Source of the DNA: a virus | Length of the DNA stretch: 49,548 nt | Strand: one strand, 5' to 3' | IMG/VR virus record: IMGVR_UViG_3300050821_005532 | Location: 1-49,548 of that record | The notes under the pieces: model-generated | Database searches by the model: none | Seen by the model: the letters and a program-made list of their open reading frames with translations, nothing else | What the model was told of the DNA's origin: nothing | Shown: positions 2,144-49,548 of the stretch, piece by piece | How the letters are laid out: the number at the start of each line of letters is the position of its first letter | Numbering within the stretch: the stretch's first letter is position 1 | Position numbers and translations under genes: made by a program

Positions 2144-2148
2144 GACAC

Positions 2149-2184: not shown

Positions 2185-2189
2185 CCACA

Positions 2190-3203: not shown

Positions 3204-3207
3204 TTAA

Positions 3208-4824: not shown

Positions 4825-5216
4825 TCTGGCAGCCGGAGGCCGTGAAGCCGGAGGACATGAAGGCCGACGTGCCCATTGGGGAGCGGCTGGGTAGCGAACG
4901 TTTGTACGATCCGAACCTGCCGCCGATCCGGCCACCAACAGAGCTGGACACGGTAGTACGCCGCCGAGGGCGCCCGAGGGGTAAACGGACCAAAAACGCG
5001 CCCACCCCACCACAAGCGGTACTTTCCAATGTCCCGGCAGAGTCGAAAAAAGCCGAGGTAAATTGGCGGGATTTTGTCGCAAATGCGCTGCAATTGACCG
5101 GAATCGTCGCAATTACGGTCGGATGCGGTCTGATCGCCCTATGGCTGGCGCTGGTCGTGGGAGGCGTTGCTCTCGTCGTTCTGGGCGTGGCGACAGGCCT
5201 CAATCACGCAGAGTAG
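4812..5216 (+). CDS. Membrane protein with charged N-terminus and two C-terminal helices
   Basis: A 134-residue protein. Residues 1-90 are polar and basic, with an RRRGRPRGKRTK stretch resembling an AT-hook-like or nucleic-acid-binding patch. Residues about 95-130 form two close hydrophobic segments (IVAITVGCGLIALWLALVV and GGVALVVLGVATGL). The ATG at 4812 follows a GAGGAGA ribosome site inside the terminase end; the ATG at 4788 is an alternative. Role unknown; the position between terminase and portal is unusual for a membrane protein. Confidence 0.55.
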   Translation: MGKVIWQPEAVKPEDMKADVPIGERLGSERLYDPNLPPIRPPTELDTVVRRRGRPRGKRTKNAPTPPQAVLSNVPAESKKAEVNWRDFVANALQLTGIVAITVGCGLIALWLALVVGGVALVVLGVATGLNHAE

Positions 5217-5251
5217 TGGGACAATCCGCCGCAGTAGACGAAGGGTTAGCG

Positions 5252-5374
5252 ATGAAGTGCACCCAATGCGAGGCCGAGGGCCGCACCGGACCGATTGAGT
5301 ACACGCGGGTGGACGATGACAACTGGCAGTGCGACCGGGGCCACGTCCAGGACTGGACCGTTGTAACGGTATGA
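5252..5374 (+). CDS. Tiny CxxC protein
   Basis: A 40-residue protein with CTQC near the N-terminus and a single later Cys in NWQCDRGH, plausibly a zinc knuckle using CxxC plus Cys/His. GAAGG lies about eight bases before the ATG. The stop overlaps the portal start (ATGA), which argues that it is really translated. Function unknown. Confidence 0.55.
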   Translation: MKCTQCEAEGRTGPIEYTRVDDDNWQCDRGHVQDWTVVTV

Positions 5375-6693: not shown

Positions 6694-6704
6694 AAGAGGA
6701 CACC

Positions 6705-8519: not shown

Positions 8520-8695
8520 GGCAATACCAGGTCCGCTGCGACGAGTGGACCGGCACCGTGTGGATGCAGCGGGTGACCGCCCCCATGTCACAGAAGGACG
8601 CCGAGAAGATCTGCCTGAACATGGCCAATGAGACCTCCTCCGGTGGCACCCGGTACCGCAACATCGCCGTCTGCTACGACATGCCCGTGCAGTGA
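8516..8695 (+). CDS. Small hypothetical protein (GTG start)
   Basis: A 59-residue reading frame starting with GTG inside the protease stop (GTGA) and ending in TGA inside the GTG start of the next gene. It reads MRQYQVRCDEWTG... and contains three Cys residues and a central helix rich in Asp, Glu and Lys. Exact 4-nt coupling at both ends is the main evidence that it is real. No family recognised. Confidence 0.55.
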   Translation: MRQYQVRCDEWTGTVWMQRVTAPMSQKDAEKICLNMANETSSGGTRYRNIAVCYDMPVQ

Positions 8696-10017
8696 CCTAC
8701 GACGCCGACTGGTACGGCTGGCAGGCCGGTGGCTCGGCGGCGTCCGCTGCCGTGGTGGCGCCCCTGCTCAACCGGCTGCTGCACCCCATCACCGTCCTCG
8801 ACGTGGGCTGCGGCGTCGGCACCTGGGCGGCGCAGTGGCCGCAGTCGGTCGGGGTGGACGGCGACTACGTGCCGCGCCGCCAGCTGCGCATCCCGGCAGA
8901 CCGGTTTCTGCCGCGCGACCTGACCAAGCCGCTGGACCTGGGACGCCGGTTCGACATGGCGCTGTGCCTGGAAGTGGGCGAGCACCTGCGGGCGCGGCAC
9001 GCCAAGACGCTGGTGGCCAGCCTGTGCAAGCACGCCGACGTGGTGGTGTTCTCCGCAGCGGTGCCCGGTCAAGGCGGCTGCGGCCACGTCAACGAGCAGT
9101 GGCCGTCCTATTGGGCCAAGCTGTTCGCCCAGCACGGCTACCACCCGTTCGACATGCTGCGGGAGCACCTGTGGTGGGACCAGCGGGTGGAGTGGTGGTA
9201 CCGGCAGAACCTGCTGGTCTTCGCCACCGGCAAGCGCGGCTGGCCCATCCCCACCGGCACGCTGGACCTGGCGCAACCGGCGATGGTACTGCCGGAGCTG
9301 GGCAAGCAACTGCGGGCCACCGTCTGCATCCCGTGGCGCCCCACCCCCTCTCGGCTGGCGGCGTTCGACCGGGTGCAGCGGTTCTGGAAGATGTTCGGCT
9401 GGCCGGTGGTGACCGCCGACAGCGACACCGAGATCTTCTCGCTGGCACAGGCGCGCAACAACGCCGTCAGCAAAGCCAAGACGGACGTGGTGGTGGTGTC
9501 CGACGCCGACACGCTGTGCGACCCGCTGAACATCCTGCGCGCGGTGGCCGACCCGGTGGGGGTCTGGTGGCCGTTCACCAAATACCGCATCCTGCTGCCG
9601 CAGTACCTGGACTACCCGCTGGCAGAGCTGGCCAGCGTGCCCTACGTCAACACCTGGGACGGCGACGGCGTGGCGGGCGTGGGCGGCTGCATCGTCGCCA
9701 GCACCAAGGAGTGGTGGCGGCTGGGCGGCCAGCCCTCCGAGTTCATCGGCTGGGGCTGGGAGGACGTGGCCTTCACCACGGTGGTGCGCACCCTCTCCAA
9801 GGCGCGGCGGCTCAAGGGCTGCGTCTACGCCTTCGAGCACAACACCCAGGCCGAGAAGTACATCGACGCGGTGGCCGACAGCCCCGGCTGGGACCGCGAC
9901 GGCGAACGCAACAAGCCGCTGTATGAGCCGTACCGGCACGCGGATGGCAGGGCGTGGGTGATGCGCGACCTGATCCGGCGCAAGGTTGAGGCGCGGCGCG
10001 CTGGCGTGTCGGCTTGA
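8692..10017 (+). CDS. Methyltransferase-glycosyltransferase fusion protein
   Basis: 441 residues in two domains. Residues 1-195 are a class I methyltransferase (VLDVGCGVGTW with Asp37, then MALCLEVGEHL). Residues about 205-441 are a GT-A glycosyltransferase: VCIPWRPTPSRLAAF, SLAQARNNAV, the metal-binding DAD at 271-273 (VVVSDADTLCD), and GWGWEDVAF near the C-terminus. This half is paralogous to the free-standing protein at 46935-47564. It lies between prohead protease and capsid, so capsid glycosylation with methylated sugar is a reasonable inference. DNA-linked substrates are the alternative. GTG start, 4-nt overlap upstream. Confidence 0.8.
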   Translation: MTYDADWYGWQAGGSAASAAVVAPLLNRLLHPITVLDVGCGVGTWAAQWPQSVGVDGDYVPRRQLRIPADRFLPRDLTKPLDLGRRFDMALCLEVGEHLRARHAKTLVASLCKHADVVVFSAAVPGQGGCGHVNEQWPSYWAKLFAQHGYHPFDMLREHLWWDQRVEWWYRQNLLVFATGKRGWPIPTGTLDLAQPAMVLPELGKQLRATVCIPWRPTPSRLAAFDRVQRFWKMFGWPVVTADSDTEIFSLAQARNNAVSKAKTDVVVVSDADTLCDPLNILRAVADPVGVWWPFTKYRILLPQYLDYPLAELASVPYVNTWDGDGVAGVGGCIVASTKEWWRLGGQPSEFIGWGWEDVAFTTVVRTLSKARRLKGCVYAFEHNTQAEKYIDAVADSPGWDRDGERNKPLYEPYRHADGRAWVMRDLIRRKVEARRAGVSA

Positions 10018-10069
10018 TTGCCGGGGCATAGCGCGCGCAAGATTTCCTTCCAGACGTGGTGGGCGAGGC

Positions 10070-10158
10070 TGGCACGGCCCCCACCAACCGGCACGGTCCC
10101 GCGGGCGTCTCGTTCACATCGGTCAAGGCCGCCGTCTTGCGGTCATGGGGCCGTGCCA
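10070..10158. repeat. 12-bp inverted repeat flanking a 65-nt loop in the capsid leader
   Basis: TGGCACGGCCCC at 10070-10081 is perfectly complementary to GGGGCCGTGCCA at 10147-10158. The right arm is followed by CCTTTTCTC, a weak T-tract, and then the capsid ribosome site GAAGGA at 10171-10176. The 166-base stretch 10018-10183 is the longest gene-free part of the head region, with no confident promoter box seen. It may be a partial terminator, an RNase-processing site or a 5' structure that boosts capsid mRNA. Confidence 0.5.
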
Positions 10159-10183
10159 CCTTTTCTCATCGAAGGAATCCCAA

Positions 10184-11641
10184 ATGACCATTATCGAGGA
10201 CCGCCTCGACGTACCCGAGGACCGCGATCCACTCAACCCCGCCGGTGGCCTGGAGGCTTACCTGAAGCGGATGCTGCAGCGCCGTGGCCAGCTTGCGCGC
10301 CAGCGCGAGGGCATTCAGGAGAAGGCCGAGGCGGTGCTGCTTGAGGCACGCAGCGCCGGGCGTCCCACCCTGAACGTCCAGGAGGACATCGAGCTGCGCA
10401 ACTACACCAAGCAGATGAAGGAGCTCGGCGACGACATCACCGGCCTGGACGAGCGCATCGAGGAGACGCGCGCCGAGGTCGAGCGCACCGGCAGCATCAC
10501 CCGCAACCTGGTCGCGATCCGCGAGGCCGAGAACACGGTTACTCGGGTCAAGGAGCAGGAGATCTACCAGAAGGGCGACCCGCGCCGGTCCTACATGCAG
10601 GACCTCATCAAGCTGACGCTGAACATCGACGACACCGGCGAGTCCCGGGAACGCCTGATGCGGCACGCCCAGGACGTGCGCACCAGCCCGGACTACAAGG
10701 AGTTCCGCGACCTGTCCCGGGTGGACGGCAGCGGTGGCTACGCCGTCCCGCCCGCGTGGCTGATGAACCAGTACATTGAGCTGGCACGTCCGGGCCGGGC
10801 ATTCGCCAACCTGGTGCAGCGCCAGCCGTTGCCCGGTGGAACCGACAGCATCAACATCCCGAAGTTGCTGACCGGTACCAGCACGGCCATCCAGACCGCC
10901 GACAACGCGCCTGTTGCCGACGTGGACCTGACGGACACCTTCATCAACGCACCCGTGCGGACGATCAGCGGCCAGCAGGGTGTGGCCATCCAGCTCATCG
11001 ACCAGAGCCCGATCGCGTTCGATGACGTGGTGTTCCGTGACCTGGTGGCAGACCACGCCAGCCAGACCGACCGCCAGTGCCTCTCCGGTACCGGCGCCAA
11101 CGGCCAGGTGCTCGGCGTGCGGTTGACCCCGAACATCGGTTCGGTACCGGCCAGCGCCGTGACCACGGCGGGCGTGTACTCGGCGATTGCCAACGCGATC
11201 CAAACCGTGCACACCACCCGCTTCCTGCCGCCCGAGGTGATCGTGATGCACCCGCGCCGGTGGGGCTGGTTCCTCTCGCTGCTGGACGGGCAACAGCGCC
11301 CGCTGTTCCTGCCCGCCGCCAACAACCCGTTCAACGCCGCCGGTATCCTCACCGACGTGGCCAGCCAGCAAGTGGTCGGCCAGATGCACGGGTTGCCAGT
11401 CGTCACCGATCCAAACTTGGAGACGAACCTGGGCACCGGCACCAACGAAGACCCGATCTACGTGCTGCGTGCATCGGACATCGTGTTGTGGGAGTCGGGC
11501 GTGCGTGCCCGCGTGCTGCCGGAGACCAAGGCCGCCAACCTGACGGTCCTCCTGCAGATCTACAACTACCTCGCCTTCTCGGCTGCGCGGTACCCGCAGT
11601 CGGTCGTCGAGATCACCGGCCTGACCGCACCGACGTTCTAA
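10184..11641 (+). CDS. Major capsid protein, HK97 fold
   Basis: 485 residues. Residues 1-150 are charged and helical (RMLQRRGQLARQREGIQ through ELGDDITGLDERIEETRAEVER), resembling the scaffolding delta domain that the prohead protease removes in HK97. The mature part starts near GGYAVPPAWLMNQYIELARP and has the typical order TDSINIPKL...GQQGVAIQLIDQSP, IVMHPRRWGWFLSLLD, GLPVVTDPN and a C-terminal strand LLQIYNYLAFSAARYPQSV. GAAGGA lies seven bases before the ATG. Identification is firm; the cleavage site was not determined. Confidence 0.92.
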   Translation: MTIIEDRLDVPEDRDPLNPAGGLEAYLKRMLQRRGQLARQREGIQEKAEAVLLEARSAGRPTLNVQEDIELRNYTKQMKELGDDITGLDERIEETRAEVERTGSITRNLVAIREAENTVTRVKEQEIYQKGDPRRSYMQDLIKLTLNIDDTGESRERLMRHAQDVRTSPDYKEFRDLSRVDGSGGYAVPPAWLMNQYIELARPGRAFANLVQRQPLPGGTDSINIPKLLTGTSTAIQTADNAPVADVDLTDTFINAPVRTISGQQGVAIQLIDQSPIAFDDVVFRDLVADHASQTDRQCLSGTGANGQVLGVRLTPNIGSVPASAVTTAGVYSAIANAIQTVHTTRFLPPEVIVMHPRRWGWFLSLLDGQQRPLFLPAANNPFNAAGILTDVASQQVVGQMHGLPVVTDPNLETNLGTGTNEDPIYVLRASDIVLWESGVRARVLPETKAANLTVLLQIYNYLAFSAARYPQSVVEITGLTAPTF

Positions 11642-12000
11642 TGGCCGAAGTTCGAGAGGCGTTTCCCCCCGCGTCGCTGACTCCCGAGGAGGCAGCGGCG
11701 GCGGTGGGGCGCTACTGGCAGGATGAGGCACCGGAGCCGCCAGTAGCGCCGCCTGCGGATGAGGGCGCGCAACCCGACGAGGAGGTTGAGCCCGACGCAC
11801 CCGACGACACCGACGAACCCAACGGGGATGTGGATGAACCCAACGGGGATGTGGGTGTGGAGGGTGCCGAGGACGCCGCGTACGAGTCCATGACCGTGGC
11901 CGAACTCAAAGCCGAGCTCGACACACGCGGCATCGACTATGCATCGGCTGCCCGTAAGGCCGATTTGATCGACTTGTTGGAGCAGGACGACGCACAATAG
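11641..12000 (+). CDS. Acidic protein with C-terminal SAP/HeH-like domain
   Basis: 119 residues. The middle is very acidic and Pro-rich, with an exact 7-residue tandem repeat (DEPNGDV twice; 18-bp direct repeat at 11815-11832 and 11836-11853). Residues about 84-115 (MTVAELKAELDTRGIDY through LIDLLEQ) match the SAP/HeH helix-extension-helix fold, often DNA-binding. The ATG overlaps the capsid TAA. Proteins like this often follow the capsid gene and may help head completion. Confidence 0.65.
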   Translation: MAEVREAFPPASLTPEEAAAAVGRYWQDEAPEPPVAPPADEGAQPDEEVEPDAPDDTDEPNGDVDEPNGDVGVEGAEDAAYESMTVAELKAELDTRGIDYASAARKADLIDLLEQDDAQ

Positions 12001-12025
12001 ATCCTGCCGTCGAAAGAGGTAGCCC

Positions 12026-12691
12026 GTGCAGGACCTACTGAGCGTGCAGGACCCCGACTGGACCGCCTTCATCAGCGGCGATCCGGACTACCTGATGCGC
12101 AGCGCGGGCGCAACGATACGGACCTACTGCGGCTGGCACATCGCGCCCAGCGTGACGGAGACGCTGCAGAAGGTTCCTATCGGCCAGCAGGGCGTCATCA
12201 TGCTGCCCTCGCTCTACGTCACCGATGTCGCCGCGGTGTACGTGCAGGCCAACCCGCAGCAGGACCCACAGCTGCTGGACCCGTCGTCCTACGTCTGGTT
12301 CCAGCAGGGCTTCATCCAGCCCATCGGCCAAGCCTTCTTCGGCTCGGCCTGGTACGCCGGTTACTACTACGAGCCGGGCCCGTACTACCTGCCGATGAGC
12401 AACGGCGGCATCGCCACCGTCACCCTCACGCACGGCTACCCGGCGGTGCCGGAGGACATCAAGCAGGTCGCCTTCGAGACGGTGCAGGCCAGCGGCGGCG
12501 GCTCGGTCGGCGGCAGTGCTGGCGCCACGCTGCCCAGCAGCACCAACGTGAAGGAGGTCGCCTCCCCCGGCTTCCGGCTGGTGCTGGGCGCGGGCGGCGC
12601 CAATGGCGAGAGCGGCACCGGGACGGTGGGCAGCCTGACCACCAACCAGAAGAACCGGCTGGCGCCGTACCGCATACCGGGTGTGAAGTGA
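12026..12691 (+). CDS. Head-to-tail adaptor/connector protein
   Basis: 221 residues. The position after capsid and accessory gene, the size, and a beginning such as FISGDPDYLMRSAGATIRTYCGWHIAPS fit the HK97 gp6/SPP1 gp15-type adaptor that docks under the portal. The GTG start is preceded by AAAGAGG at 12013-12019. The central part is rich in Tyr and Gly and the C-terminus in Gly/Ser. Assignment by context and N-terminal pattern. Confidence 0.65.
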   Translation: MQDLLSVQDPDWTAFISGDPDYLMRSAGATIRTYCGWHIAPSVTETLQKVPIGQQGVIMLPSLYVTDVAAVYVQANPQQDPQLLDPSSYVWFQQGFIQPIGQAFFGSAWYAGYYYEPGPYYLPMSNGGIATVTLTHGYPAVPEDIKQVAFETVQASGGGSVGGSAGATLPSSTNVKEVASPGFRLVLGAGGANGESGTGTVGSLTTNQKNRLAPYRIPGVK

Positions 12692-13098
12692 GCATCATCG
12701 CCTCACCGTGGCCGGTGGTGCATGTCCCGCGTGCCATCGACCCGAACGGGCCGCTGGACGACCACAACAACCCGCCGCTGGTGGTGGGCACGCCGGTGAT
12801 GCGCAAGGTCATGTCCATCACGCAGTTTGGCCGGCGCGGTTCCAGCCGCGAGGTGATCAGCCCGGACTACCTGCTGCGCACCGAGACCACCATCCATATC
12901 TCGGTGGCCGACCCCACGGTGTACGACCCGGACGACCTGGTGTACCTCTACCCGGACTTCGACGACACCGGCACCTGGGTCAGCGACAGCGGCATCGCGT
13001 TCTGGGTCGACGGCGTGCCGAGCGACGAGCGCACCGGCCCGTGGCCGTGGCTGCTCGCGCTGTTCGGCGGCATCGTCAAGCTGCGGCGGGTGACATGA
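12688..13098 (+). CDS. Head-to-tail connector (stopper-like)
   Basis: 136 residues, mostly predicted beta (TTIHISVADPTVYDPDDLVYLYPD). Second in the canonical adaptor-stopper-neck-terminator order, so it is probably the head-completion stopper protein. GTG start overlapping the previous stop by four bases. No specific motif supports more than the positional call. Confidence 0.55.
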   Translation: MSIIASPWPVVHVPRAIDPNGPLDDHNNPPLVVGTPVMRKVMSITQFGRRGSSREVISPDYLLRTETTIHISVADPTVYDPDDLVYLYPDFDDTGTWVSDSGIAFWVDGVPSDERTGPWPWLLALFGGIVKLRRVT

Positions 13099-13583
13099 CC
13101 GACGGCCCGGCGTGGGGCGATGCCCCGGCAATCTCCGATACCGCGTCCTGGGGCGACGGCACGATTGCCCCGGACGAGGAGATCGAGGTCGACGCGCACC
13201 CGATGGACGTGGGCAACGGTCACTACATCAAGCTGGACCCGGCCGTCTTCGAGGCCATGCTGCGCGAGCAGTACGTGCGGGACGCGCTGCGCGCACGCGG
13301 GCAGAAGGTGGCGGACATCGCCAACGGCATGGCCATTACCGAGGGCGCGGTCTACACCTCCATTTACATGGACACACCCGGCTTCACCCGCCCGCAGGTG
13401 CTGGTGCTGCCCGCCAACTACAAGGCCAAGGTGGACGACGCCGCACACGCGACACTCATGGTGGCGGCTGCCATGGTCGGCTCCGACCCCAAGATCGAGG
13501 AAGACGAGGACGCCCCCGGCGAGGAGGTCACCGCGTCCGAGATCGCGCGCGTCGTCGAGGAAGTCGGCGAGGAGGAGATATGA
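13095..13583 (+). CDS. Head-tail neck protein, HK97 gp10-like by context
   Basis: 162 residues. Acidic at both ends, with a central helix EQYVRDALRARGQKVADIAN typical of gp10-like neck/tail-completion proteins, then a strand pair around SIYMDTPG and RPQVLVLPANYKAK. The C-terminus is very acidic. The ATG overlaps the previous stop (ATGA). Confidence 0.55.
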   Translation: MTDGPAWGDAPAISDTASWGDGTIAPDEEIEVDAHPMDVGNGHYIKLDPAVFEAMLREQYVRDALRARGQKVADIANGMAITEGAVYTSIYMDTPGFTRPQVLVLPANYKAKVDDAAHATLMVAAAMVGSDPKIEEDEDAPGEEVTASEIARVVEEVGEEEI

Positions 13584-14032
13584 CCGCACCGGCCGCCACC
13601 CCGTTCCCCGTCACCCAGCCGCCGCCCATCGAATCCCTCGGCGCGGCCTACTTCAGCCCGCTGATGTCCATCCCGGTCGTCACCCGCAACCCGCAGCCCG
13701 CGCCCAACCAGGTGAGCGTGACCGAGTTCCTGCGCCTGCAGTCCGGCGGCGGCAGCCAGCGGCCCAACTGGTACCTGTGGGACATGACGCTGATCCTGCA
13801 CAGCTACGCGCCCAACCCGCAGGAGACGCTGGCCGAGAACAACCTGGCCACCGCCATCGCCTGGGGCGCCGCCGCGCAGGGCCAGACCATCACGCTGCGC
13901 AACGGCGATGCGTACTACGTGACGTACAGCCGGGCCAGCGGGCTCTCGCACCGCCTCGGCGATCCATATGTGGACCTAACCCGCTACCGCGGCATGGTGA
14001 TGTGGCGGGTGATGGGCAAGGCGCTTAGCTAG
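13580..14032 (+). CDS. Tail terminator-like protein
   Basis: 150 residues at the position where the tail terminator is usually encoded, just before the major tail gene. The protein has TWYLWDM-type strand content (NWYLWDMTLILHSYAPN), a helix ENNLATAIAWGAAA, and a basic C-terminus. Its TAG stop overlaps the stop of the convergent gene at 14029-14364 by two bases. Assignment by order and size. Confidence 0.55.
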   Translation: MTAPAATPFPVTQPPPIESLGAAYFSPLMSIPVVTRNPQPAPNQVSVTEFLRLQSGGGSQRPNWYLWDMTLILHSYAPNPQETLAENNLATAIAWGAAAQGQTITLRNGDAYYVTYSRASGLSHRLGDPYVDLTRYRGMVMWRVMGKALS

Positions 14033-14364
14033 GCGAAGTGCTGCTTGTCGGCGCCCACGTGGTTGCGCTGGCAGTCCGGCCCGCAGTGCCCCGGTCGGCG
14101 CACCTCCTTCTCGGACCAGTCCGCACCTATCGAACGCGCGTACGCACGGCGCCGCTCGGTCGCGCCCACGCGCCAGATGCGCAGCTCCGGCTCTAGCGTG
14201 AGTTCGACCAGCTCCTTGTCTGCCAGCGAGCGCGCGGCGCGGTAAATCTGCTGCTGGGAGACGCCGAGATGCTTGGCCAGCTGGTGCGTGGTGAGGAAAG
14301 TGTGCGGGCGCAAAAACTGCTCCGCCAGGATGGCGCGCTCAGTGCTTCCAAGGCCCCTGCTCAC
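14029..14364 (-). CDS. Winged-helix/HTH DNA-binding protein, antisense within the structural operon
   Basis: 111 residues. The helix-turn-helix lies in residues about 22-50: FLTTHQLAKHLGVSQQQIYRAARSL, followed by a wing-like segment KELVELTLEPELRIWRVG. The C-terminus has a possible metal site HCGPDCQRNH. The GTG start at 14364 has GGAGG four bases upstream, which decides it against longer readings. It is the only leftward gene in 40 kb of rightward late genes. Palindromes just upstream suggest it binds its own promoter region. Target and role unknown. Confidence 0.7.
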   Translation of the reverse strand: MSRGLGSTERAILAEQFLRPHTFLTTHQLAKHLGVSQQQIYRAARSLADKELVELTLEPELRIWRVGATERRRAYARSIGADWSEKEVRRPGHCGPDCQRNHVGADKQHFA

Positions 14365-14378
14365 AGCGCCTCCAACAT

Positions 14379-14395
14379 CACTTAGCCGGTAAGTG
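14379..14395. promoter_or_regulatory. Operator-like palindrome upstream of the antisense HTH gene
   Basis: CACTTA and TAAGTG form perfect 6-bp arms around GCCGG. The site lies 15-31 bases upstream of the GTG start of the leftward HTH gene and overlaps a weak -10-like TACACT on that strand. The position suits autorepression. This is inference from symmetry and position only. Confidence 0.4.
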
Positions 14396-14439
14396 TAGTG
14401 GCGAGTTGATTTTCCACCCCCGCAGCGCGCGTGTCGCAC

Positions 14440-14454
14440 TACGCGATTCGCGTA
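14440..14454. promoter_or_regulatory. 15-bp palindrome between the HTH gene and the major tail gene
   Basis: TACGCGA and TCGCGTA form perfect 7-bp arms around one central T. It sits about 50 bases before the major tail protein ATG and 76 bases upstream of the HTH start. A protein bound here could control the strongly expressed tail gene. No confident -35/-10 pair was found in 14365-14503, so the exact promoter is unresolved. Confidence 0.45.
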
Positions 14455-14503
14455 ACGCTGGGATTCTGTGCGCGGGCCATCCCTACCCGAACAAGGAGGA
14501 CAA

Positions 14504-15106
14504 ATGACCACAGTTACGCCACCCACGGTGATCAGCGATGTTCAGGAAGTCGCGGCACCTAGTCCTAAGATCACCGGCGGCGTGCTACTCGCGCCCTTGG
14601 GCACCGCGCTGCCCACGGACGCGGTAACGCCACTGGACCCCGGATTCATCACCCTCGGCCGCGTCTCCGACGCCGGTGTGGACCGCACTGAGGAGCGCCC
14701 GAACACCGAGATCAACGACTGGGGTGGCGACCTGATCGCCGTGCTGCAGGACAAGTACGGCATCACCCTCAAGTTCAAGCTGCTGCAGTTCGTCAACGCC
14801 GACGTGGCCAAGGCCGCACACGGCACCGACAACGTGACGGTGACACCGGCCACCAGCACCACCGGCACCGGCATCACGTCCAAGCTGAACGCGCAGCTGC
14901 TCGACTTCGGCAGCTGGGTCATCGACGCCTACTACATGCAGATGAGCATGAGGCTGGTGGTGCCCTATGGCCGTCTGACCCTCGTCGGGCCGCTGACCTG
15001 GGTGCACAAGGCGCTGGCCGCTTACGATTTCACGTTGAAACCGTTCCCGGACACGTTCAATAACCATGCGTACGAATATCTCAACGATGGAGTACTTGCA
15101 CCGTGA
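14504..15106 (+). CDS. Major tail protein (tail tube)
   Basis: 200 residues. Preceded by the strongest ribosome site in the window (AAGGAGGA at 14493-14500), as expected for a protein made in large amounts. Pattern: an N-terminal strand GGVLLAPLGT, then PGFITLGRVSDAGVDRTEERP...INDWGGD typical of siphovirus tube proteins, and a C-terminal strand YDFTLKPFPD. It precedes the chaperone pair and tape measure in the usual order. The stop overlaps the next GTG. Confidence 0.8.
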   Translation: MTTVTPPTVISDVQEVAAPSPKITGGVLLAPLGTALPTDAVTPLDPGFITLGRVSDAGVDRTEERPNTEINDWGGDLIAVLQDKYGITLKFKLLQFVNADVAKAAHGTDNVTVTPATSTTGTGITSKLNAQLLDFGSWVIDAYYMQMSMRLVVPYGRLTLVGPLTWVHKALAAYDFTLKPFPDTFNNHAYEYLNDGVLAP

Positions 15107-15609
15107 CAGTTTCGGCCAAACGCAAGACCACAGCACCGCGTAAGGCCGCCAAACCGAGGACGAATGGGCACGCCACCGGCGTGCCCATCGCCCCGGCTAC
15201 GGAGGCCGAGCTACGAGCACCCGAGCGGTTTGAACCCACGACCACGCCCGCGCTGCCCGGTGATGCACCTCCGGTCCCGGTGGCCCAGGCGCCAGCGCCT
15301 ATCCAGCATCCCTACGGCGATATCGACGTCTACGTTTTCAGACCGAACACCGTGCAGGTGGGCGACAGCATGGATCCCATCGTCGCGCCGCACATCACCA
15401 CGCTGAACGCAGACGTGGAGTTCTTCTGGGAGCTGGACGACCTCGACCCGATGCACCAGGCGTTCCGGTACATGAAGCGTGCCAACATCCCCCGGGACAT
15501 CCAGCGCAGAGTGGTGCGGCTGCCGGAGGGTGAGCTGGCGCGCTTCCTCAACGGTTGGTTCATGGGTGTCCTCATGCCGCAGGGGGTGGGACCGCCGGGG
15601 GAATCCTGA
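15103..15609 (+). CDS. Tail assembly chaperone, upstream frame (gpG-like)
   Basis: 168 residues. A basic, Ala/Pro-rich N-terminus (KRKTTAPRKAAKPR) is followed by a folded acidic part (VEFFWELDDLDPMHQAFRYM) and a C-terminal helix LARFLNGWFMGVLM. The pair sits between major tail protein and tape measure as in most siphoviruses. It ends in GES at a TGA that overlaps the next ATG (TGATG). The short form and a frameshifted long form would guide tube polymerisation on the tape measure. Confidence 0.75.
   Translation: MTVSAKRKTTAPRKAAKPRTNGHATGVPIAPATEAELRAPERFEPTTTPALPGDAPPVPVAQAPAPIQHPYGDIDVYVFRPNTVQVGDSMDPIVAPHITTLNADVEFFWELDDLDPMHQAFRYMKRANIPRDIQRRVVRLPEGELARFLNGWFMGVLMPQGVGPPGES
15597..15603 (+). 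other. Candidate -1 frameshift site G GGG GAA
   Basis: In the frame of the upstream chaperone gene the codons read CCG GGG GAA TCC TGA. The heptamer G GGG GAA would allow a -1 slip into the downstream frame (GGG GGA ATC CTG ATG), joining the two chaperone genes. A second run, G GGG GTG at 15582-15588, is less favourable for A-site re-pairing. The heptamer is not an ideal X XXY YYZ, so coupled reinitiation at TGATG is the alternative. Confidence 0.4.
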
Positions 15610-16004
15610 TGCTGGCGTCGGTCATCAGGAAGTACTGGCACGCGCTGGTCCGGGACATCATCGCTCTCGGCTACCGCGTCAGCGATATGTTCACCACCCT
15701 GACGTTCGGAGAAATGGTGTCCATCGTCGTGGGCGCACACCCGCAGACCTCGGTGCGGTTCTTCCTGGACGGCGGCTGGTCCCGCGAGGCGCACCTGCTG
15801 GCCAACATGCAGGAACGCGACGCCGGAATCGCCAAGATCACCCAGCCCTACCCGCGACCGGGCGTGGATCAGCGGACACACGCACCCAAGCCGGGCGGCT
15901 TCTTCCAGGCCGACGTGATGACCTGGGACGAGTTCGACGAGAAGCAGCTCAAGCGATACGCGCAGAGCCAGAAGGTGGGCGCTAACCGGGTGCGGACGAT
16001 ATGA
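15609..16004 (+). CDS. Tail assembly chaperone, downstream frame (gpT-like extension)
   Basis: 131 residues from the ATG in TGATG, or the C-terminal part of a -1 frameshift product with the preceding gene. The frame is open from about 15555, across the whole overlap, as expected for a programmed frameshift. Begins MLASVIRKYWHALVRDIIALGY and ends in a basic tail. The stop overlaps the tape measure start (ATGA). Confidence 0.7.
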   Translation: MLASVIRKYWHALVRDIIALGYRVSDMFTTLTFGEMVSIVVGAHPQTSVRFFLDGGWSREAHLLANMQERDAGIAKITQPYPRPGVDQRTHAPKPGGFFQADVMTWDEFDEKQLKRYAQSQKVGANRVRTI

Positions 16005-19000
16005 CCGATCCCAGCGTAGGCGCGGAACTCTGGGTATCAGTCCTGCCCACCCTGCAAGGTCTGCAGGAGCGCTTCCGCCAGGCCGGCATCATCGCCGGGG
16101 ACGCGATGGGCCGCTCGGCCACCGAGAGCCTGACCCGCGTGCTGGCCGGTGCATCGGCGCAAGGCGTGGCACAGCATGGAGCGAAGACCGGCACGGAGTT
16201 CGCCCGCGGCTTCTCCGAGCAGGTCGCCTTCGGGATCAACGACACCTTCGAGAAACAGATCCCGGCATCGTTCCAGCGCGGCATGCGAACGGTGAAGTCG
16301 GCGTTTCCCACGCTGGCCCAGGAGATCGGGGGGCAGTTTGAATCGGCGCTGACCGCCCGCATCTCCGGTGCCGGTTCCTTCCGTGCGTTGCTCAATAACC
16401 CGGCCATCAGGACCATCGCGCACCAGACCGGGCAGCAGTTCCACCAGGAGTTCATCAACACCTTTGAGCAGGGCCTGGTGCCCTCCATCGCGGCCAGCCT
16501 GAGTAAGACGACGGGCCTGGGCGCGACCGCCGCCACCAACTTCGCCAAGTCGTTCCAGAACGGGCTGGCGCCGGAGCTGGGCAAGATCATCTCCAACATC
16601 CCGGTCCTCTCGTCCTTCGCGCCCCTGTTCAGCGGCATGGGCAAGGACGCCTCGGCGCTGTATAACGCGGCGTACAAGGAGGAAGCCGACAAGCTGGCGC
16701 CGGGCCTGAAGCCGTCGTACGACAAGGTCTACGCCAACATGGCCGACAAGGCGGCGGCAAGTGGGGCGCTGGCCGGAAAGCTGTTCAGCGGGGCCCTCTC
16801 CGCTGGCATCATCACCGCCGGTGAACTCGCCGTACACGCACAGGCCAAGATTCTCGAGTACGCCAACAAGGAGATCGCGGCGTTCGCCAAGGTCGGCAAG
16901 GAGGCAGCCGACACCCTAATGGATGGGTTCACCTCCCTCCTCGAAGGCAAAATGCCCAACGTCATGGCTGCCTTCAACGTGGTGGAGGAGGGCTTCAAGA
17001 CCGCGTTCGAGGTGCCGCTGACGGCGATCAACACCCTGATAGACGACACCGTGGGGCACATCCCATTGCTGGGCGCCCAGGTCAAGATGGTGCTGGGGGA
17101 GGCCGAGCAGGCGTTCGGCGCGGTGTTCGCCATCTTCGACGAGTTCAAGGGCTTGGCCGGCGAATACATGTCGTCGCTGCTGGAAGTCGGCAACACCTAC
17201 CTGGAGGTGTCCCGCAAGATCGCGGCCAGCACCCTGGATCCGGAGAACATCGAGGGCCTGACCGCCGCCGTGCGCGACATTATGGACTCCGGCGCCATCG
17301 TGCACCTGGACGATGTGTCCGAAGCCATCGGGCGTCTCAACAGCAACATCAAGGACCTCTCGCCCGAGCAGCTGAAAGAGCTGACCACCAACTTCGCCGA
17401 GATGGAGGAGATTCTCGGCCACTTCGACGCCACCAAGTTCGCCGGGGTGATCAACGCCTGGAACGTGGGCAGCGACAAGGCCAACGACATGCTCACGATC
17501 CTGGGCAACACCGCCCGGCTCACCGGCATCTCGATGGACCAGATGATCAGCGAGATGGAGCAGGTCGGCCCGGCCATGCGTGCCTTCGGGTACACCGCCG
17601 AGCAGGCGGGCACCTTCTTCGCGCGGATGGCCCAGGAGGGCGAGCCCGCACGCCGCGCGGTCTTCATGTGGACCCAGGCGTTCAAGGAGGCCACCAAGTC
17701 CGGCGAGGACCCGAAGTCGTGGCTGAACGACCAGATCATCGGCATTAAGCAGTTGATGGATCGCGGCGAGATGAACGAAGCCGCGAAGATGTTCGAGAAG
17801 TCGTTCGGCCAGCGCGCCACCCCGCTGCTGTTGGAGGACATCAAGAAGGGCATCCTCGACCTGCCCAGCGTGATGAAGAGTTTGGAGGGCTTGGAGACAC
17901 CCGCCAAGGAAGCGGTCGAGGCCACCCAGAGCCTGGACGACGCCCTGGAAAAGCTGAGCCAGCAGGCCAAGGCCACGCTGGCACCGCTGGGCGAGAACAT
18001 GGCCCACGGACTGGTGGACGCCAGCAACAACATCTCGCACTGGCTGACCGAGAACCAGGACAAGATCCTGCACTGGGGCACCGAGGTCGCGACCTACATC
18101 ATGCAGGCGGCGGGCAGCATCGTGCAGTTCATCGGCGACTCGCTGGTGCTGGTATCCGCGTTCCTCAACCCGCTCAAGGAGATGGTGATCGGCACCATCT
18201 CGGCCATCATCGCGCCGTTCCAGCTGCTGCTTAGCGTCCTCAACGACCTGCCGTTCATCGGCGACAAGTTCAAGGGCGCCAAGGACGCCATCGACCAGGT
18301 GCAGGGCAGCCTGTCCAAGATCGACGATTTCGACTTCACGCACATCGCCGAGGATCTCGGTCACCGGATGCAGGGCGTCGCGCGCAACGATATTCCGCAG
18401 GTGACAAGGGCCATACAAGATGCCAGCGGCGCGATGGAGGCCAACCTGCAGGTCACCTCGGCATTCACCGAGAAGATCAACGGCGAGCTGAAGCCCGCAT
18501 TCGACCAGATCAAGAACGCGCAGGGCGAGCTGATGGGCGGCACCGCCGAGCAGCCGTTCAACCTCAAGCTGTTGGGCACCCCGGCGCAGTGGCAGGACGT
18601 CACGAACAAGCTGCACAACATGGGCATCGACATCAAGACGAACACCGAGGGCGTTATCACCGCCATCGAGTTCGCCAACAAAGAGGCCCATGACAAGTGG
18701 GACGAGTGGTACAAGGAAGCCGCCAAGAACCCGAAGCATGTGCCGGTGGAGATGGACCCGCAGCGCGAGGGCAAAGACGTCAAGACATCCGGCGAGCTGG
18801 TGGAGCCCGGCAGCGTCGATGTCACGCTGAATCCCAAGGTCGGCCCCGGCAAGGGCGTGGTGGTGGACCCGAGCACCGGCCAGACGGTGCCGGAGTACGG
18901 GCCCGCTGGTCCGAGTGGCCCGGTGCGTACACCGGTCGGCGGGGCGCCGTCGTCGCTCGGCGCCCCCGGCGCCCCGGTTGCCGGTGACACAGCACTGGTC

Positions 19001-22000
19001 GCCGCGCTGCGGGCGAAGGGCTTCACCCCGGATCAAATCCGGCTCATCCAGGGCTTCAGCCAGGTCGAAGGTCGAAACCCGTCCGGTGTTCCAACACTGG
19101 GCTTCGTCGATAGCGAGATCGGCGGCTCTGATCTACAAACCCACGTCAACGCACTGGCCGACCAGTTCCAGAGGCGCGCCTCCGTAGCTGGTCCATACCC
19201 GGCTGGCGGCACCGATCAGGACAAAGCGGCGTGGATCGCCAGGCTCGTCGGACAGAGTGGCGTAGTCGATTACCACGGTGACCAGCAGCCAGCAGATTAC
19301 GTCCAACGAGTTGTCGCTGCTATGCAGGGCGTTCCTACAGTTCCCGGCAGCGGTCCCGTTGTCCCGGGCGCCCCGGCAGCCCCGGCTCCACTGGGAACCG
19401 CTGGCAATCCGCTCTTTGTCATTGGGCCGGCAACTCCCGCTGGACCGCCCCCACCGAGCGCACCCTCGGCGGTCATCACCCAGCAGTCGGGTGGCGTTCC
19501 GGCAGCACCGGCGCCCGCTCCCGGTCCGGCCCCGGTACCCGTCCCCACACCGGGCAGCCTCGGTATCCCAACGCTGCCCGGCGTCACTGCCCCGGCTGCC
19601 CCGGCCGCTCCGGCTGCACCGGCGGCTACCGGACCAAAGGCCAAGCCCGGCTTGGCATCCGAATTGTTGACGGGTCCGGATGGGAAGTTGCATTGGTACA
19701 ACGGTGAGGGGGTGGAGGTCTTTGGGCCGAGCGATGCCAAGCATGGTCAGCCTGTAACCCCCGCTGCACCGGCTGCTCCGGCTGCTCCGGCTGCTCCGGC
19801 AGCACCCGCCGCTCCTGGTGGTGCTCCGGGAGCATCCACCATCGCCGCACCCGTAGGTGGCTGGACGGACCACGGCGGCTGGGGCTACTACCACGCGCCG
19901 GATGGTCAGGTCTATTGGGTGCCCGCCGGGACAGCGCGCCCCACCGTTTCCAGCGCCGGACCGCCGGAGGCGCCCGGCGGCTACGAGTGGGTGCCGCAGG
20001 AATCCACCGAGCAGGGCCAAACCGTCCTGGTACTCACCAAGCAGGGTGGTGTCGGCAGATTCGGCGCCGTGCAGGTGCCCCCCTCCATTCAGATGGCTTC
20101 CGGCCCACCAGCCGCCGGTACGCCGGGCGGTCCACCGAAACCGGTGGTCGCGGGTCTGCCGCCGGGCGTGGTCGCGCTGACGGACGAGGAGTTCAACAAG
20201 GCGCGTGGCGGCCTGCCCACCCCTTCCGGCCCACCAGGCACCAAGACCTGGGTGCCGTACACGCAGGACGGCAAGAAGTATTGGGTGCCCGGCGATGCCA
20301 GCGGCGTCCCCATTGTGGGTCCGATGCCCAGCACCACCGCCGCCGCCGTCACTCCTCCACCCGCAGCGCCGGAGGGGGGGAAGCCGGGCACGGTTGCGCA
20401 CGGCGGCGCCAGCACCGCACCCAAGTCGCCCTCCGAGTTCTGGGGCGGTTCGGGCGCGTTCCCGCTCGGTGGCTGGGGAAGGGGCGGCGAAGGCAGGAAG
20501 CTGGGTAGCTTCTTCGAGAACCAGGGATTGGTCGACCCGCTCATCGCGCTGGGCGGGGAGATGCCTGGACTGCCAACAAGGTGGGGCAGCGGCAAAGCTT
20601 CGACATCCCTTGCCTACACCGCGCTACCCAGCGCCAGCCCCCCGGAAAGTTCACCGGACAAGGGATTCTGGTCGACGTTCGGGCACGCCGCGAGCGAGCG
20701 CTCGAAGAAGATCCTCTCCGACATCGCCGGCTGGCGGCTTGGCGGCGCGGTCGGCTTCCAGGGGGGCGGCGAGATCGACTTCTCCGGCGAACCCATAGAC
20801 CCCAACGACCCGTTGGGGCACCGCCCCAACAGCGATATGCCCGGCGACCTCGGTCCCAACGCGCAAATCTGGAAGAAGCTGCGCGAGTCGGCCGGTGGCC
20901 AATACCCGATCACCATGAGCCTCGATCCGGGCGAAACCCGCGACGTGCATGAGATAACCCACGAGGCGCCGGGCCAGAACATCCTGGGATCAGCCGACCC
21001 GGCGGTGTGGATTCCCAAGCTCAAGCGGCTGTTCGGTTTCCAGCGCGGCGGGATCGCGCAGGCCGATGTCGGTGGCCGCGACCCCGACGACTGGAACACC
21101 ACCGGGGGTGGAGGATCCTACCCACCCGACTGGTGGCCGTTCGCCACGCCGGGCGCCCATTTCGACAGGCCGGTCCCGCCGTTCCCCATGCCCCTCCCGC
21201 CCAGCAGCGCCTGGCACAAGGCCATACCGTTCAACGGCGGCGGCGACATCCCGTGGCTGCCGGGTAGCAGGAAGGGGCAGGACAGCATCTTCGCCATGCT
21301 GGCGCCCAACGAGCATGTGTGGACCGATGACGAGGTGGCCGCAGCGGGTGGGCACGGCGCGATGTACGGGATGCGCGCCGCCGTCAGGAGCGGCAAGAAG
21401 CCCAAGTTCTTCGACGCAGGCGGTCCAGGCGCCAGCTTGCAGCCGCTGCAGACACAGGGCGCGCAGGTGGACACCATCGCGCTGGGCTACGCGGTGGAGC
21501 AGCAGTTCGGCATCACCAACCAGGGCTTCTACCGCGCGCCGGACGCACCCAACGAACATGCCAGCGGGCTTGCCGTGGACATCATCGTGGGCACCGACAA
21601 CCCGGAGGGCACCACCGTCAAGGACTGGGTGATGGCCAATGCCGGGCAGTACGGCGTCGAGTACGCCATCTGGCAGAACACGCTGTGGTACCCGAACGGC
21701 CACAGCGAGGGCTTCGGCGCCAACCCGAGCGATGAGACTCAGAGCCACCGCAACCACGTTCACGTCCGCACCGTGGGTGGCGGCTTCCCGCCACGCGGCG
21801 GTCCGGGCGCGGGCGCTGGGCAACCCCGCACTGGAAGCGTCTCGTCGACGCCCGCGCCCGCTGCCGTCGCGCTCCTGGGAGCCGGGTACCAGGGCGGCGA
21901 GTCGGCACCGGCCGGTGCGGCTGCCGGTGACCCGAGCCGGGGGACGACCGGCACCGGCGGATCGACGCCGTACACGCCGATGGATTCCAGCGGTGCCAAT

Positions 22001-46365: not shown

Positions 46366-46935
46366 GTGACAGTCACATTCATGGGCCAGAAGGAAATGCC
46401 TGTCGGCAAGCTGCATCCACACCCGGAGAACCCGAACCGTGGCGACGTGAACGCCATTACCGAGAGCCTGGAACAGCACGGCCAGTACCGCAGCGTGGTG
46501 GTCAACAAGGACGGCACCATCCTGGCCGGGCACCACGTCTGGCAGGCGGCCAAGGGCCTCAAACTCAAGACACTACGGGTGGACATGGTGGATGCCGACG
46601 AGACGAGCGCACGCAAGATCCTGTTGGCGGACAACAGGATTGCCGAGCTTGGCCCCGGCCCGGACATGGAAGCCCTGCTGGAGGTGTTGCTCAAGATCGA
46701 CACCCTGGAAGGCACCGGCTTCGACGAGGACTACGTGCAGATGCTGCAGGAGATGCTGGCCGGTGCGCCGGACCTGGACGAGTTGGAGAACGAAGCGGGT
46801 GGCCCGCTGGGCGACGAGGACTTCATGAGCCGCCTGCTGCTGGTGGTGGACACCCCGACGCTGGCGGCGTGGAAGAAGCACCGGGACGAGTTCGAGAACG
46901 ACACCACGGCGATGAACGCCCTGCTGGGCATCTGA
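46366..46935 (+). CDS. ParB-like nuclease-domain protein
   Basis: 189 residues. The ParB/sulfiredoxin-type fold is seen in residues about 10-95: MPVGKLHPHPENPNRGD, AITESLEQHGQYRSVVVNKD, GTILAGHHVWQAAKGLK, followed by SARKILLADNRIAELG. The C-terminal half is acidic and helical. Such proteins are frequent in phages near DNA-modification or methyltransferase genes, and some are nucleases or CTPases. GTG start without a ribosome site: TACGCT ends seven bases upstream, which would suit a leaderless mRNA. First gene of the 7-deazaguanine cluster. Confidence 0.75.
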   Translation: MTVTFMGQKEMPVGKLHPHPENPNRGDVNAITESLEQHGQYRSVVVNKDGTILAGHHVWQAAKGLKLKTLRVDMVDADETSARKILLADNRIAELGPGPDMEALLEVLLKIDTLEGTGFDEDYVQMLQEMLAGAPDLDELENEAGGPLGDEDFMSRLLLVVDTPTLAAWKKHRDEFENDTTAMNALLGI

Positions 46936-47564
46936 TGCGGGTTGCCGTCTGCATCCCGTGGCGGGCGCAGCCCACCCGGCTGCCCGCCTTCTACCGCGCC
47001 ATGGAGTTCTGGGCAGACTACCCGGTCTACCTCGGCGACAGCGAACCCACGCAGCCCTTCCACCGCAGCCAGGCGCGCAACAACGCGGTGAAGTCGGCGG
47101 CGGCGGAAATCGTCATCATCGCGGACGCCGACACGGTGTGTGAGATGCCCGCGCTGCGGCGGGCGGTGGACCTGGCCAACGGCGGTGCCGTGGTCTACCC
47201 CTTCACCCGCTACCGGGCGATGCCAGCCGAGGCGGTGGCCTACGACCTGGACGACCTGTACGTGGTGGAACCGTGCTTCACCAAGTACGACGCGGCCGGC
47301 GGCATCCTGGTGTGCGCGTCCGATCTGTTCTGGTGGCTGGGCGGCTACGACGAGCGCTTCGGCGCGGTGTGGGGCTACGAGGACAAGGCGTTCAAGGCAG
47401 CCGCCGAGACACTGGCGGCGGTGGAACGGGTGGAGGGCATCGCCTGGTCGTTCGACCACGAGAACGACAGGGAACCCACCGCGGCCACCACCCGCAGCCG
47501 CTGGAAGTTGTACCAGTTCGCCTACGGCAAGCCCGAGGTCATGCGCGAGCTGCTGAAGCGATGA
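46935..47564 (+). CDS. GT-A family glycosyltransferase-like protein
   Basis: 209 residues. Motifs in order: VAVCIPWRAQPTRLPAFYRA, QARNNAVKSAAAE, the metal-binding DAD at residues 64-66 (IIADADTVCE), YPFTRYRAM, LFWWLGGYDERF and WGYEDKAFKAA. The same series appears in the C-terminal half of the fusion protein at 8692-10017, so the two are paralogues. Being inside the DpdA-QueD-QueE operon, it may glycosylate modified DNA or act on the virion. The ATG overlaps the ParB-like stop. Confidence 0.75.
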   Translation: MRVAVCIPWRAQPTRLPAFYRAMEFWADYPVYLGDSEPTQPFHRSQARNNAVKSAAAEIVIIADADTVCEMPALRRAVDLANGGAVVYPFTRYRAMPAEAVAYDLDDLYVVEPCFTKYDAAGGILVCASDLFWWLGGYDERFGAVWGYEDKAFKAAAETLAAVERVEGIAWSFDHENDREPTAATTRSRWKLYQFAYGKPEVMRELLKR

Positions 47565-47911
47565 TGCTGGCGCTGGTGATCCACCCCATTCTCGGTCCGT
47601 TGGAGGTGCAGCCCTTCGACCTGACCGGCTTCGTGCAGCGGCTACAGGGCATCATCGGCGCCGACCTGGACAGCGCCAGCACCGAGGTGGGCAACGTGCT
47701 GTTCTGGTACACCCACATCTGGAGTGGCGCAATGCCGCCGCGCAACGACACCGCGACCAAGCTGTGGCACGAACTGAACCCCAGCGGGCGCACGGAGCCG
47801 GTGAACGGCTGGGTGCACTTCTACGGCACGGTGGTGATCAGCGGGCGCAAGGACGTGGACCTGCCCGACGACCTGCACCTGCCGGACGACATCAGCTGGG
47901 CGATACCGTGA
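47561..47911 (+). CDS. Unknown protein between glycosyltransferase and DpdA
   Basis: 116 residues, MM start overlapping the previous stop (ATGATG). Contains a hydrophobic N-terminus (LALVIHPILGPLEVQPFDL), a middle region rich in Trp and His (VLFWYTHIWSG), and an acidic C-terminus (DVDLPDDLHLPDDISW). Not a family I recognise. Tight coupling on both sides suggests it works with the DNA-modification enzymes. Confidence 0.55.
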   Translation: MMLALVIHPILGPLEVQPFDLTGFVQRLQGIIGADLDSASTEVGNVLFWYTHIWSGAMPPRNDTATKLWHELNPSGRTEPVNGWVHFYGTVVISGRKDVDLPDDLHLPDDISWAIP

Positions 47912-48813
47912 CCATCGCACCGCCGCGCAACCTGCTGGTGTCCTTCGCGTACTACCACAAGTACGACCTGGACAGGCTGGCCCCGTGCCGGATCGCCGCC
48001 GACTCCGGCGCCGTCAGCCTGCGCACGCTGGGCAAGCCGGTGGAGACGAGGAACCTGGTGACGTGGGCGCAGATGTACCACCACCGCATCTCGTGGATCG
48101 CCAGCCTCGACATCACCGGCAACGCCGAGACGAGCAAGTACAACTGGAACGAGATGGTGGACGCCGGTATCCCCGGTGTACCCACCATCCACCTGCGCGA
48201 GCGGCCGGAAACCATGGACTACTACGTCGAGCGCGGCGTGGACTTCATCGGGCTGGGCGGCATGGCGCTGGTCGACGCGGGCATCCAGGAGAAGTTCCGG
48301 TGGATGGTGGCCTGCTTCAAGTACGCGCGGGACAACCACCCGCACGTCCGGTTCCACGGCTGGGGGCTGGCCAACAAGAGCCACCTGCGGCTGCCGTTCT
48401 TCAGTGTGGACTCCTCCGGCTGGGGGTCCAGCTACCGCTACGGGCGGCTGCACCTGCGCGACCCGCAGCGGCAGGGCAAGGTGCACAGCATCGACCTGAA
48501 CGGGCGCGGCACCTACAGCCAGGACATCGCGTGCCTGCTGCGCGATCACTACGGGGTGAACCCGAGCGAAGTCTCCACCAGCGCACCGCACAACCGGCTG
48601 ATGATGGTGCGGCTATCGGCGCTCTCGGCCAGCGTGCAGGAGCAGCAGCTGCGCTACTTCCACCGGCACAACCCGGTGCCGTCGCCCAAGTGGGGTCGCC
48701 TCGGCGGCTGGGCAGAGGATTTCACCGGCCCGATCCTGTACCTGGTGGACGGCCATCCGCAGCACATCGAGACCGTGGCCAAGCTGGCACGGGGAGAGCA
48801 GGTGTACTCATGA
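47908..48813 (+). CDS. dpdA: DpdA-like DNA 7-deazaguanine transglycosylase
   Basis: 301 residues, of the tRNA-guanine transglycosylase (TGT) fold. ADSGAV with Asp32 matches the DSG(G) base-recognition motif of TGT; WIASLDITGN holds Asp68; FIGLGGMALVDAG at about 113-125 matches the (G)LGG strand. It is shorter than tRNA enzymes, lacks their C-terminal zinc site by eye, and is next to que genes in a phage, as expected for DpdA, which swaps guanine in DNA for a 7-deazaguanine. GTG start, 4-nt overlap with the preceding gene. Which DpdA subfamily it belongs to was not determined. Confidence 0.8.
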   Translation: MTIAPPRNLLVSFAYYHKYDLDRLAPCRIAADSGAVSLRTLGKPVETRNLVTWAQMYHHRISWIASLDITGNAETSKYNWNEMVDAGIPGVPTIHLRERPETMDYYVERGVDFIGLGGMALVDAGIQEKFRWMVACFKYARDNHPHVRFHGWGLANKSHLRLPFFSVDSSGWGSSYRYGRLHLRDPQRQGKVHSIDLNGRGTYSQDIACLLRDHYGVNPSEVSTSAPHNRLMMVRLSALSASVQEQQLRYFHRHNPVPSPKWGRLGGWAEDFTGPILYLVDGHPQHIETVAKLARGEQVYS

Positions 48814-49268
48814 GCACCATTTCGGTACGTACCCACTTCGCCGCCGGGCATCGCATCCTCGGGCTCACCGGGCCGGGCGCCAAATGTCGTAATATCCACG
48901 GCCATACCTTCCACGTCACCTGGACCTACGCCCAGGATGTCGGCGACCCGCTGGAGTTCGGCGCCGTCAAAGAGAAGCTGCGCGCGATGATCGCCACGCT
49001 GTTCGACCACGGGTTCATCATCGACCGCGAGGACGAGTTCATCGGCTACCTGCGCGCCGGGAAGCTGAAGTACTACGCGCTGATCGGGCAGCCCACCACC
49101 GAGGCCATCGCCGCCGAGATCGCCAAGCACAGCCGACGCGCGCTGCCCAAGGCGCCGCTGCTCTCGGTCGAGCTGCGGGAGGGGCCGGACAACACGGCCA
49201 CCTGGTTCCCGTCGATATCCGACTCCGGGCCGCTGCCGCACGTCGTGCTGACGGGTGCGGGCACATGA
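48810..49268 (+). CDS. queD: 6-carboxy-5,6,7,8-tetrahydropterin synthase (QueD)
   Basis: 152 residues. Zinc ligands His14 (FAAGH), His30 and His32 (HGH) and the catalytic Cys26 (AKCRNIHGH) are all present, along with the DHG motif (FDHGF) and PTTEAIA before the last helix. It converts 7,8-dihydroneopterin triphosphate to carboxytetrahydropterin, the second step to preQ0. It follows DpdA with a 4-nt overlap and overlaps QueE in the same way. Function firm. Confidence 0.9.
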   Translation: MSTISVRTHFAAGHRILGLTGPGAKCRNIHGHTFHVTWTYAQDVGDPLEFGAVKEKLRAMIATLFDHGFIIDREDEFIGYLRAGKLKYYALIGQPTTEAIAAEIAKHSRRALPKAPLLSVELREGPDNTATWFPSISDSGPLPHVVLTGAGT

Positions 49269-49548
49269 CGCTGCCGGTGGTGGAGGCGTTCACCAGCATC
49301 CAGGGCGAGGGGCCGCGCGCCGGCCGCCTGTGCGCGTTCATCCGCTTCGGCGGCTGCAACCTCTCCTGCGGCTACGCGGGCGGCTGGGTCTGCGACTCGG
49401 CATACACCTGGGACTCCCGCTTCTACGACCTGAAAGAGGAGATCACCCGGATGAGCCCGGCCAGCATCGTGCGGCTGGTGGACCCGGAGGTCAACGAGGT
49501 CATCCTGACCGGCGGCGAGCCGCTGATGCACCAGAAGAATCCGGAGTG
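49265..49548 (+). CDS. queE: 7-carboxy-7-deazaguanine synthase (QueE), N-terminal part
   Basis: The window ends inside this gene after about 94 codons. It has SIQGEGPRAGR, FIRFGGCNLSC and LTGGEPLMHQ, all typical of the radical SAM enzyme QueE, which contracts carboxytetrahydropterin to CDG. The iron-sulfur cysteines are spaced CNLSC-GYAGGWV-C (CX3CX7C) instead of the usual CX3CX2C, a five-residue insertion before the DSAYTWD segment. Reading frame and overlap with QueD (ATGA) are sound, so this is not an obvious frameshift. Truncated by the window end. Confidence 0.85.
   Translation, partial: MTLPVVEAFTSIQGEGPRAGRLCAFIRFGGCNLSCGYAGGWVCDSAYTWDSRFYDLKEEITRMSPASIVRLVDPEVNEVILTGGEPLMHQKNPE

Follow-up and report, generated by a model that had tools for sequence, protein, structure and literature searches.

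A probable Rosebush-type DNA-modification cassette in an uncultivated phage, with a glycosyltransferase gene and a probable DUF3846 gene between its ParB-like and DpdA genes

The DNA analysed here, which we call the window, is the whole of the IMG/VR virus record IMGVR_UViG_3300050821_005532 (49,548 nucleotides), and its last part (46366-49548) holds six tightly joined genes that resemble the 7-deazaguanine DNA-modification cassette of actinophages. An earlier sequence-only reading had described six coupled genes at this place, and we find every frame where it was put, intact and in the order ParB-like protein, glycosyltransferase (GT), a 116-aa protein, DpdA, QueD and QueE. The gene for the ParB-like protein (46366..46935, + strand, 189 aa; phrog_723 8e-36) is joined through a single shared base, in the junction TGATG, to that of a GT-A glycosyltransferase (46935..47564, + strand, 209 aa; phrog_1721 2e-41), and each of the four junctions that follow is a 4-nt ATGA or GTGA overlap. 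These lead through the gene for the 116-aa protein (47561..47911, + strand) to DpdA, the DNA guanine transglycosylase (47908..48813, + strand, 301 aa; phrog_7068 5.5e-117), then to QueD, the 6-carboxytetrahydropterin synthase (48810..49268, + strand, 152 aa; PF01242 2.6e-18, TIGR03367 2.7e-13, phrog_2389 3e-26), and finally to the N-terminal part of QueE, the 7-carboxy-7-deazaguanine synthase (49265..49548, + strand; phrog_2076 1e-27), inside which the window record ends. Third-position GC across the operon is 0.88-0.97 and the codon composition is normal.

The locus can be followed further in a twin record, IMGVR_UViG_3300021404_000007 (100,917 bp; hereafter G001), which is 100% identical over the operon and over window 1-20000, with 99.6% measured for window 1-821, and in which the window end corresponds to G001:44773. 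IMG/VR assigns G001 no completeness value; it is probably a complete genome because its termini have 113 bp in common at 99.1% identity. Beyond the window end G001 encodes the complete QueE (235 aa; TIGR03963 6e-24), an HNH protein that carries an AP2 domain, and FolE, after which the genes lie on the opposite strand. The search beyond position 49548 that had been proposed for QueC and GTP cyclohydrolase thus recovers the second of the two, as FolE behind the HNH gene, and finds no QueC in the cassette.

That this is a 7-deazaguanine DNA-modification operon, as the earlier reading held, is borne out by the homology and fold of DpdA and by the actinophage cassette already known. Both profiles that DpdA matches, phrog_7068 and phrog_887, are annotated as queuine tRNA-ribosyltransferase, and the protein shares 57-58% identity with the DpdA proteins of Saguaro and the Rosebush-genus phage TA17A. 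No PDB chain was matched directly by sequence. An AlphaFold2 model built from 22 viral homologs (predicted local distance difference test score, pLDDT, 91.1; predicted template modelling score 0.89) agrees with that reading on one of the points by which it could have been refuted, namely the tRNA-guanine transglycosylase (TGT) fold of the protein starting at 47908: all 50 matches listed by VIA-align 2 are TGTs, the best with Z 16.1 and a root-mean-square deviation of 3.0 over 240 residues, although Foldseek alone placed general TIM barrels on top and only VIA-align 2 ranked TGTs first. In the 22 sequences Asp32-Ser33-Gly34-Ala35, His150-Gly151 and Asp168-Ser169-Ser170 are invariant, and because of known TGT chemistry we infer that Asp32 and Asp168 form the catalytic pair.

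The order ParB-DpdA-QueC-QueD-QueE-FolE is an already established actinophage system, found at the left genome end in Saguaro, CRB2, TA17A and Sour, internally in Finch and Sonali, and also in most of 26 IMG/VR loci and one Nocardia genome. In Rosebush, the only one of these phages with a measured value, about 28% of the G of the DNA is 2'-deoxy-preQ0 (dPreQ0) and several restriction enzymes are resisted, the minimal gene set for this base being FolE, QueD, QueE, QueC and DpdA (PMC6884629), and the DNA of Finch, which has the same cassette genes, resists MseI (PMC13313380). Similar to Rosebush, Saguaro and CRB2 (Bclasvirinae), the operon described here has a DpdA of the same subfamily (51-58% identical), a ParB-like gene upstream, QueD, QueE and FolE, and the same gene order with tight overlaps. 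However, it lacks a canonical QueC between DpdA and QueD, it carries the GT gene and the 116-aa gene between ParB and DpdA and an HNH gene between QueE and FolE, and the cassette does not lie beside the terminase gene. ParB is the first gene of the cassette, ahead of DpdA, in nearly all relatives. The authors of the CRB2 study proposed its ParB-like ORF1 as a DpdB homolog (PMC6392294), and DpdB is described as an ATPase resembling ParB that serves to insert dPreQ0 (PMC12839542); the ParB-like protein of the window is likely the counterpart of bacterial DpdB.

The nearest relative of the locus is the uncultivated genome IMGVR_UViG_3300013093_000001 (G002), whose ParB-like protein is about 50-51% identical to ours, with QueD at 61%, QueE at 54% and FolE at 64%. 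Similar to G001 it has no QueC inside the cassette, and a GT of this family is encoded in it along with a QueC-like paralog. It differs in that its ParB-DpdA gap is 0 with nothing inserted, that a canonical QueC is present elsewhere in the genome, and that its GT lies far from DpdA and adjoins a second GT. In most relatives the ParB and DpdA genes share 4 nt or come close to abutting, whereas here they stand 972 nt apart. Since StAugustine carries a DnaQ-like gene at this junction, Knocker a FolE-like gene, and the IMG/VR loci L034 and L041 a second DpdA-like gene, the ParB-DpdA junction is a variable slot. Tandem DpdA paralogs within one cassette were seen at L034 5142-5762, L041 4336-4956 and L026 670-2543.

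One of the two genes in this slot had been listed as encoding an unknown protein, a description that holds as far as Pfam is concerned, where the 116-aa protein has no match even at E 10. It is also the exception in the profile search, since the other five proteins are recognized far beyond chance and this one matches only phrog_3777, at E 0.059. Aligned by hhalign with an alignment of four DUF3846 (PF12957) proteins it scores 31.6, the best of 100 shuffles reaching 20.9, and phrog_3777 and DUF3846 match identical places in G001 and G002; the protein is thus probably a diverged member of DUF3846, a common actinophage gene without known function. By tblastn it has no relatives in phages, and in IMG/VR only the same phage carries it. 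A relationship to the Bipper gp4 family, which occupies the QueC position in that phage, was ruled out (hhalign probability 0.2%).

QueC lies neither inside the G001 cassette nor directly after FolE. The sole strong PF06508 match in G001 is a QueC-like paralog of 252 aa (G001:19359-20117, + strand) about 25 kb from the operon, which keeps the SGGLDS motif and the four-cysteine zinc site and lacks a motif of the YPDC type that all compared QueCs from cassettes share; it exceeds the cut-off of the broader PF06508 and reaches 45 bits on TIGR00364, for which the cut-off is 150. In G002 a paralog of this kind adjoins a canonical QueC, and the gene that precedes this pair is 61% identical to the gene preceding the G001 paralog. 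In a tree with very long branches the G001 and G002 paralogs cluster with the QueC-like protein of Stenotrophomonas phage Moby, whose gene, likewise without the YPDC motif, adjoins a TGT gene and QueE and lies near FolE (L090 2989-5877). This locus suggests, from gene order, a deazaguanine-linked QueC-like subfamily, which may still work in the pathway because the Moby copy has these neighbours. For QueF nothing in G001 exceeded the cut-off, the weak match at G001:43396-43545 being FolE. The tandem in G002 (G002:42764-44845; L066 2765-4846), which lies away from its DpdA cassette, consists of a phrog_15826 protein, the canonical QueC and the QueC-like paralog; the phrog_15826 protein looks TGT-like by eye and its family is without known function.

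From the genes present, their order, the predicted folds, the conserved residues and the insertion we think that the locus is probably a DNA-modification operon of the Rosebush type known from actinophages, in which the GT and DUF3846-like genes are inserted cargo. In such a scheme FolE, QueD and QueE would convert GTP to 7-carboxy-7-deazaguanine (CDG), and a last step, if there is one, would perhaps be carried out by the QueC-like ATP-pyrophosphatase, giving preQ0 or another derivative. The 7-deazaguanine would then be put in place of guanines in the phage genome by DpdA, aided by the ParB-like protein, and would block host restriction enzymes as in Rosebush. The GT and DUF3846-like genes would have entered at the ParB-DpdA junction, so as to be co-translated with the operon while most likely serving another job.

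Four observations weigh against this interpretation. A canonical QueC was not found by profile search in G001, which is probably a complete genome. The HNH gene with its AP2 domain sits between QueE and FolE in G001. The cysteine motif of QueE is CX3CX7C instead of the usual CX3CX2C, with five residues inserted between the last two cluster cysteines, and among the 31 other loci whose motif could be read a spacing of similar length recurs only at L050. Finally, the tight coupling of the GT to the operon would also agree with a role in the modification. At L050 the radical SAM (S-adenosylmethionine) motif of QueE reads CX3CX8C, in a cassette that is otherwise complete.

The first of these points bears on which base is made, and dPreQ0 and deoxy-CDG (dCDG) are both possible. 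An alternative that overlaps with our preferred reading, keeps the GT as a passenger and seems to us a serious possibility, somewhat short of an even chance, is that canonical QueC has been lost and that the base, instead of dPreQ0, is either dCDG or what the QueC-like enzyme makes. Besides the missing QueC, it draws on G002, where canonical QueC and paralog stand side by side, so that the paralog there has a separate history. It draws also on the probable host group, mycobacteria or their relatives: the major head protein is closest to those of Mycobacterium phages, including Bipper (52%), and since mycobacteria have no queuosine genes (PMC6884629), QueC could not come from a host of that kind. 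Bipper itself is QueC-less, and for it Hutinet et al. named CDG as a possible base (PMC6884629). Similar to the operon here, Bipper has a cassette with ParB, DpdA, QueD, QueE and FolE; it differs in having a 141-aa unknown protein in the place of QueC and no GT. Pointing the other way is the Moby gene, which belongs to the same group as the G001 paralog and has a TGT gene, QueE and FolE as neighbours, so that the subfamily may be a divergent QueC. Reportedly Cui et al. in 2023 added four further phage 7-deazaguanines. Three QueC-less cassettes (L027 2047-2472, which is Bipper; L053 5019-5390; L055 6882-7253) have a protein of 124-141 aa exactly in the QueC position; these proteins are 52-56% identical to one another, that of Bipper has no Pfam, PHROG or NCBIfam match, and they could act on CDG.

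The GT raises a different question, since its coupling to the operon had led the sequence-only reading to raise the possibility of a glycosylated or otherwise elaborated deazaguanine. By model and motif it is a GT-A-fold enzyme of GT2/GT7-like type within phrog_1721: the motifs DAD (residues 64-66) and WGYED (146-150) are intact, and the AlphaFold2 model (pLDDT 92.6) matches the GT-A enzymes heparosan synthase 2, chondroitin polymerase K4CP and beta4GalT at Z 15-16, with ppGalNAcT also among the matches. A rival to our preferred reading would have DpdA insert CDG and the GT attach a sugar to its carboxylate, or to an amide that the QueC-like enzyme produces. It gains from the operon coupling, from the intact catalytic motifs and from a fold match to AvpGT, which was solved with the nucleoside Ara-A; with canonical QueC missing, a carboxylate or amide acceptor is moreover chemically possible, where preQ0 would offer none. 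In animals the queuosine of tRNA is glycosylated by GT2-type enzymes.

The distribution of the family points elsewhere. The GT family adjoins DpdA in only one of 13 IMG/VR loci sampled, that of the present phage, and eight of the others (L077-L083, L085) have a second GT-like gene near; conversely, none of the 31 other DpdA loci compared has a GT. Among annotated phages the GT is 39-46% identical to those of Gordonia phages Syleon and Neville and Mycobacterium phage Sebata (Bixzunavirus) and 29% identical to that of Porcelain (Omegavirus), yet no DpdA was detected by profile search in these four, and their GTs usually adjoin other GTs. When the GT-DpdA pair was sought in bacterial genomes, one related cassette was found, in Nocardia transvalensis, and it is canonical. 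We therefore do not see the conserved association with a DNA-modification gene by which a DNA-base GT would be recognized: linkage to DpdA is confined to one lineage, and G002 carries both genes far apart. Such a base was also not found described in the literature searched. On these grounds we regard a sugar on the inserted base as unlikely. Slightly less likely still is a broader reading, in which CDG is inserted without conversion to preQ0 and the GT, alone or together with the QueC-like enzyme, elaborates its carboxylate to give a sugar-bearing or differently conjugated 7-deazaguanine.

Additional bearing on the GT substrate comes from a paralog in the window (8692..10017, + strand), 41% identical to the operon GT and fused behind a SAM methyltransferase domain (Methyltransf_23 2e-8, followed by GT domains), which is flanked by the genes for the head maturation protease and the major head protein. 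In actinophages, GTs encoded beside O-methyltransferases reportedly add sugars to proteins of the capsid and the tail tube (PMC11600133). A setting near capsid or tail genes and with a methyltransferase holds for this paralog and for the Porcelain GT, which follows capsid and O-methyltransferase genes, and not for the operon GT. The family distribution, the paralog among head genes and the capsid GT/methyltransferase modules of related phages together favour a non-DNA substrate, and glycosylation of the virion or of another non-DNA target is our leading guess for the operon GT.

A decaying cassette that leaves little or no modified base in the DNA, for which one might cite the CX3CX7C spacing of QueE, the missing QueC and the inserted HNH-AP2 gene and cargo, is quite improbable given the intact frames, the normal codon composition and third-position GC, the tight overlaps, the invariant DpdA residues and the similar QueE insertion at L050.

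The reading of a Rosebush-type operon with inserted cargo places an uncultivated phage in a known family of 7-deazaguanine DNA modification. What is new here is a remodelled cassette, with a GT and DUF3846-like insert, no canonical QueC found and an altered QueE spacing. It offers a natural case in which canonical QueC is apparently gone while QueD, QueE, FolE and DpdA remain, and makes testable both the base in the DNA of a QueC-less phage and the role of QueC-like paralogs. It also carries a caution, in that coupling into a modification operon does not make a gene a modification gene.

Elsewhere in the window, two paralogous phrog_3382 methyltransferase genes (19-714 and 1481-2143) lie upstream of the gene for the large terminase subunit. 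The twin phage record (L011 7592-8443) encodes a Ku-like DNA end-binding protein, and at about 8100-9960 of L012 the DNA is repetitive, with short recurring words and long overlapping frames on both strands.

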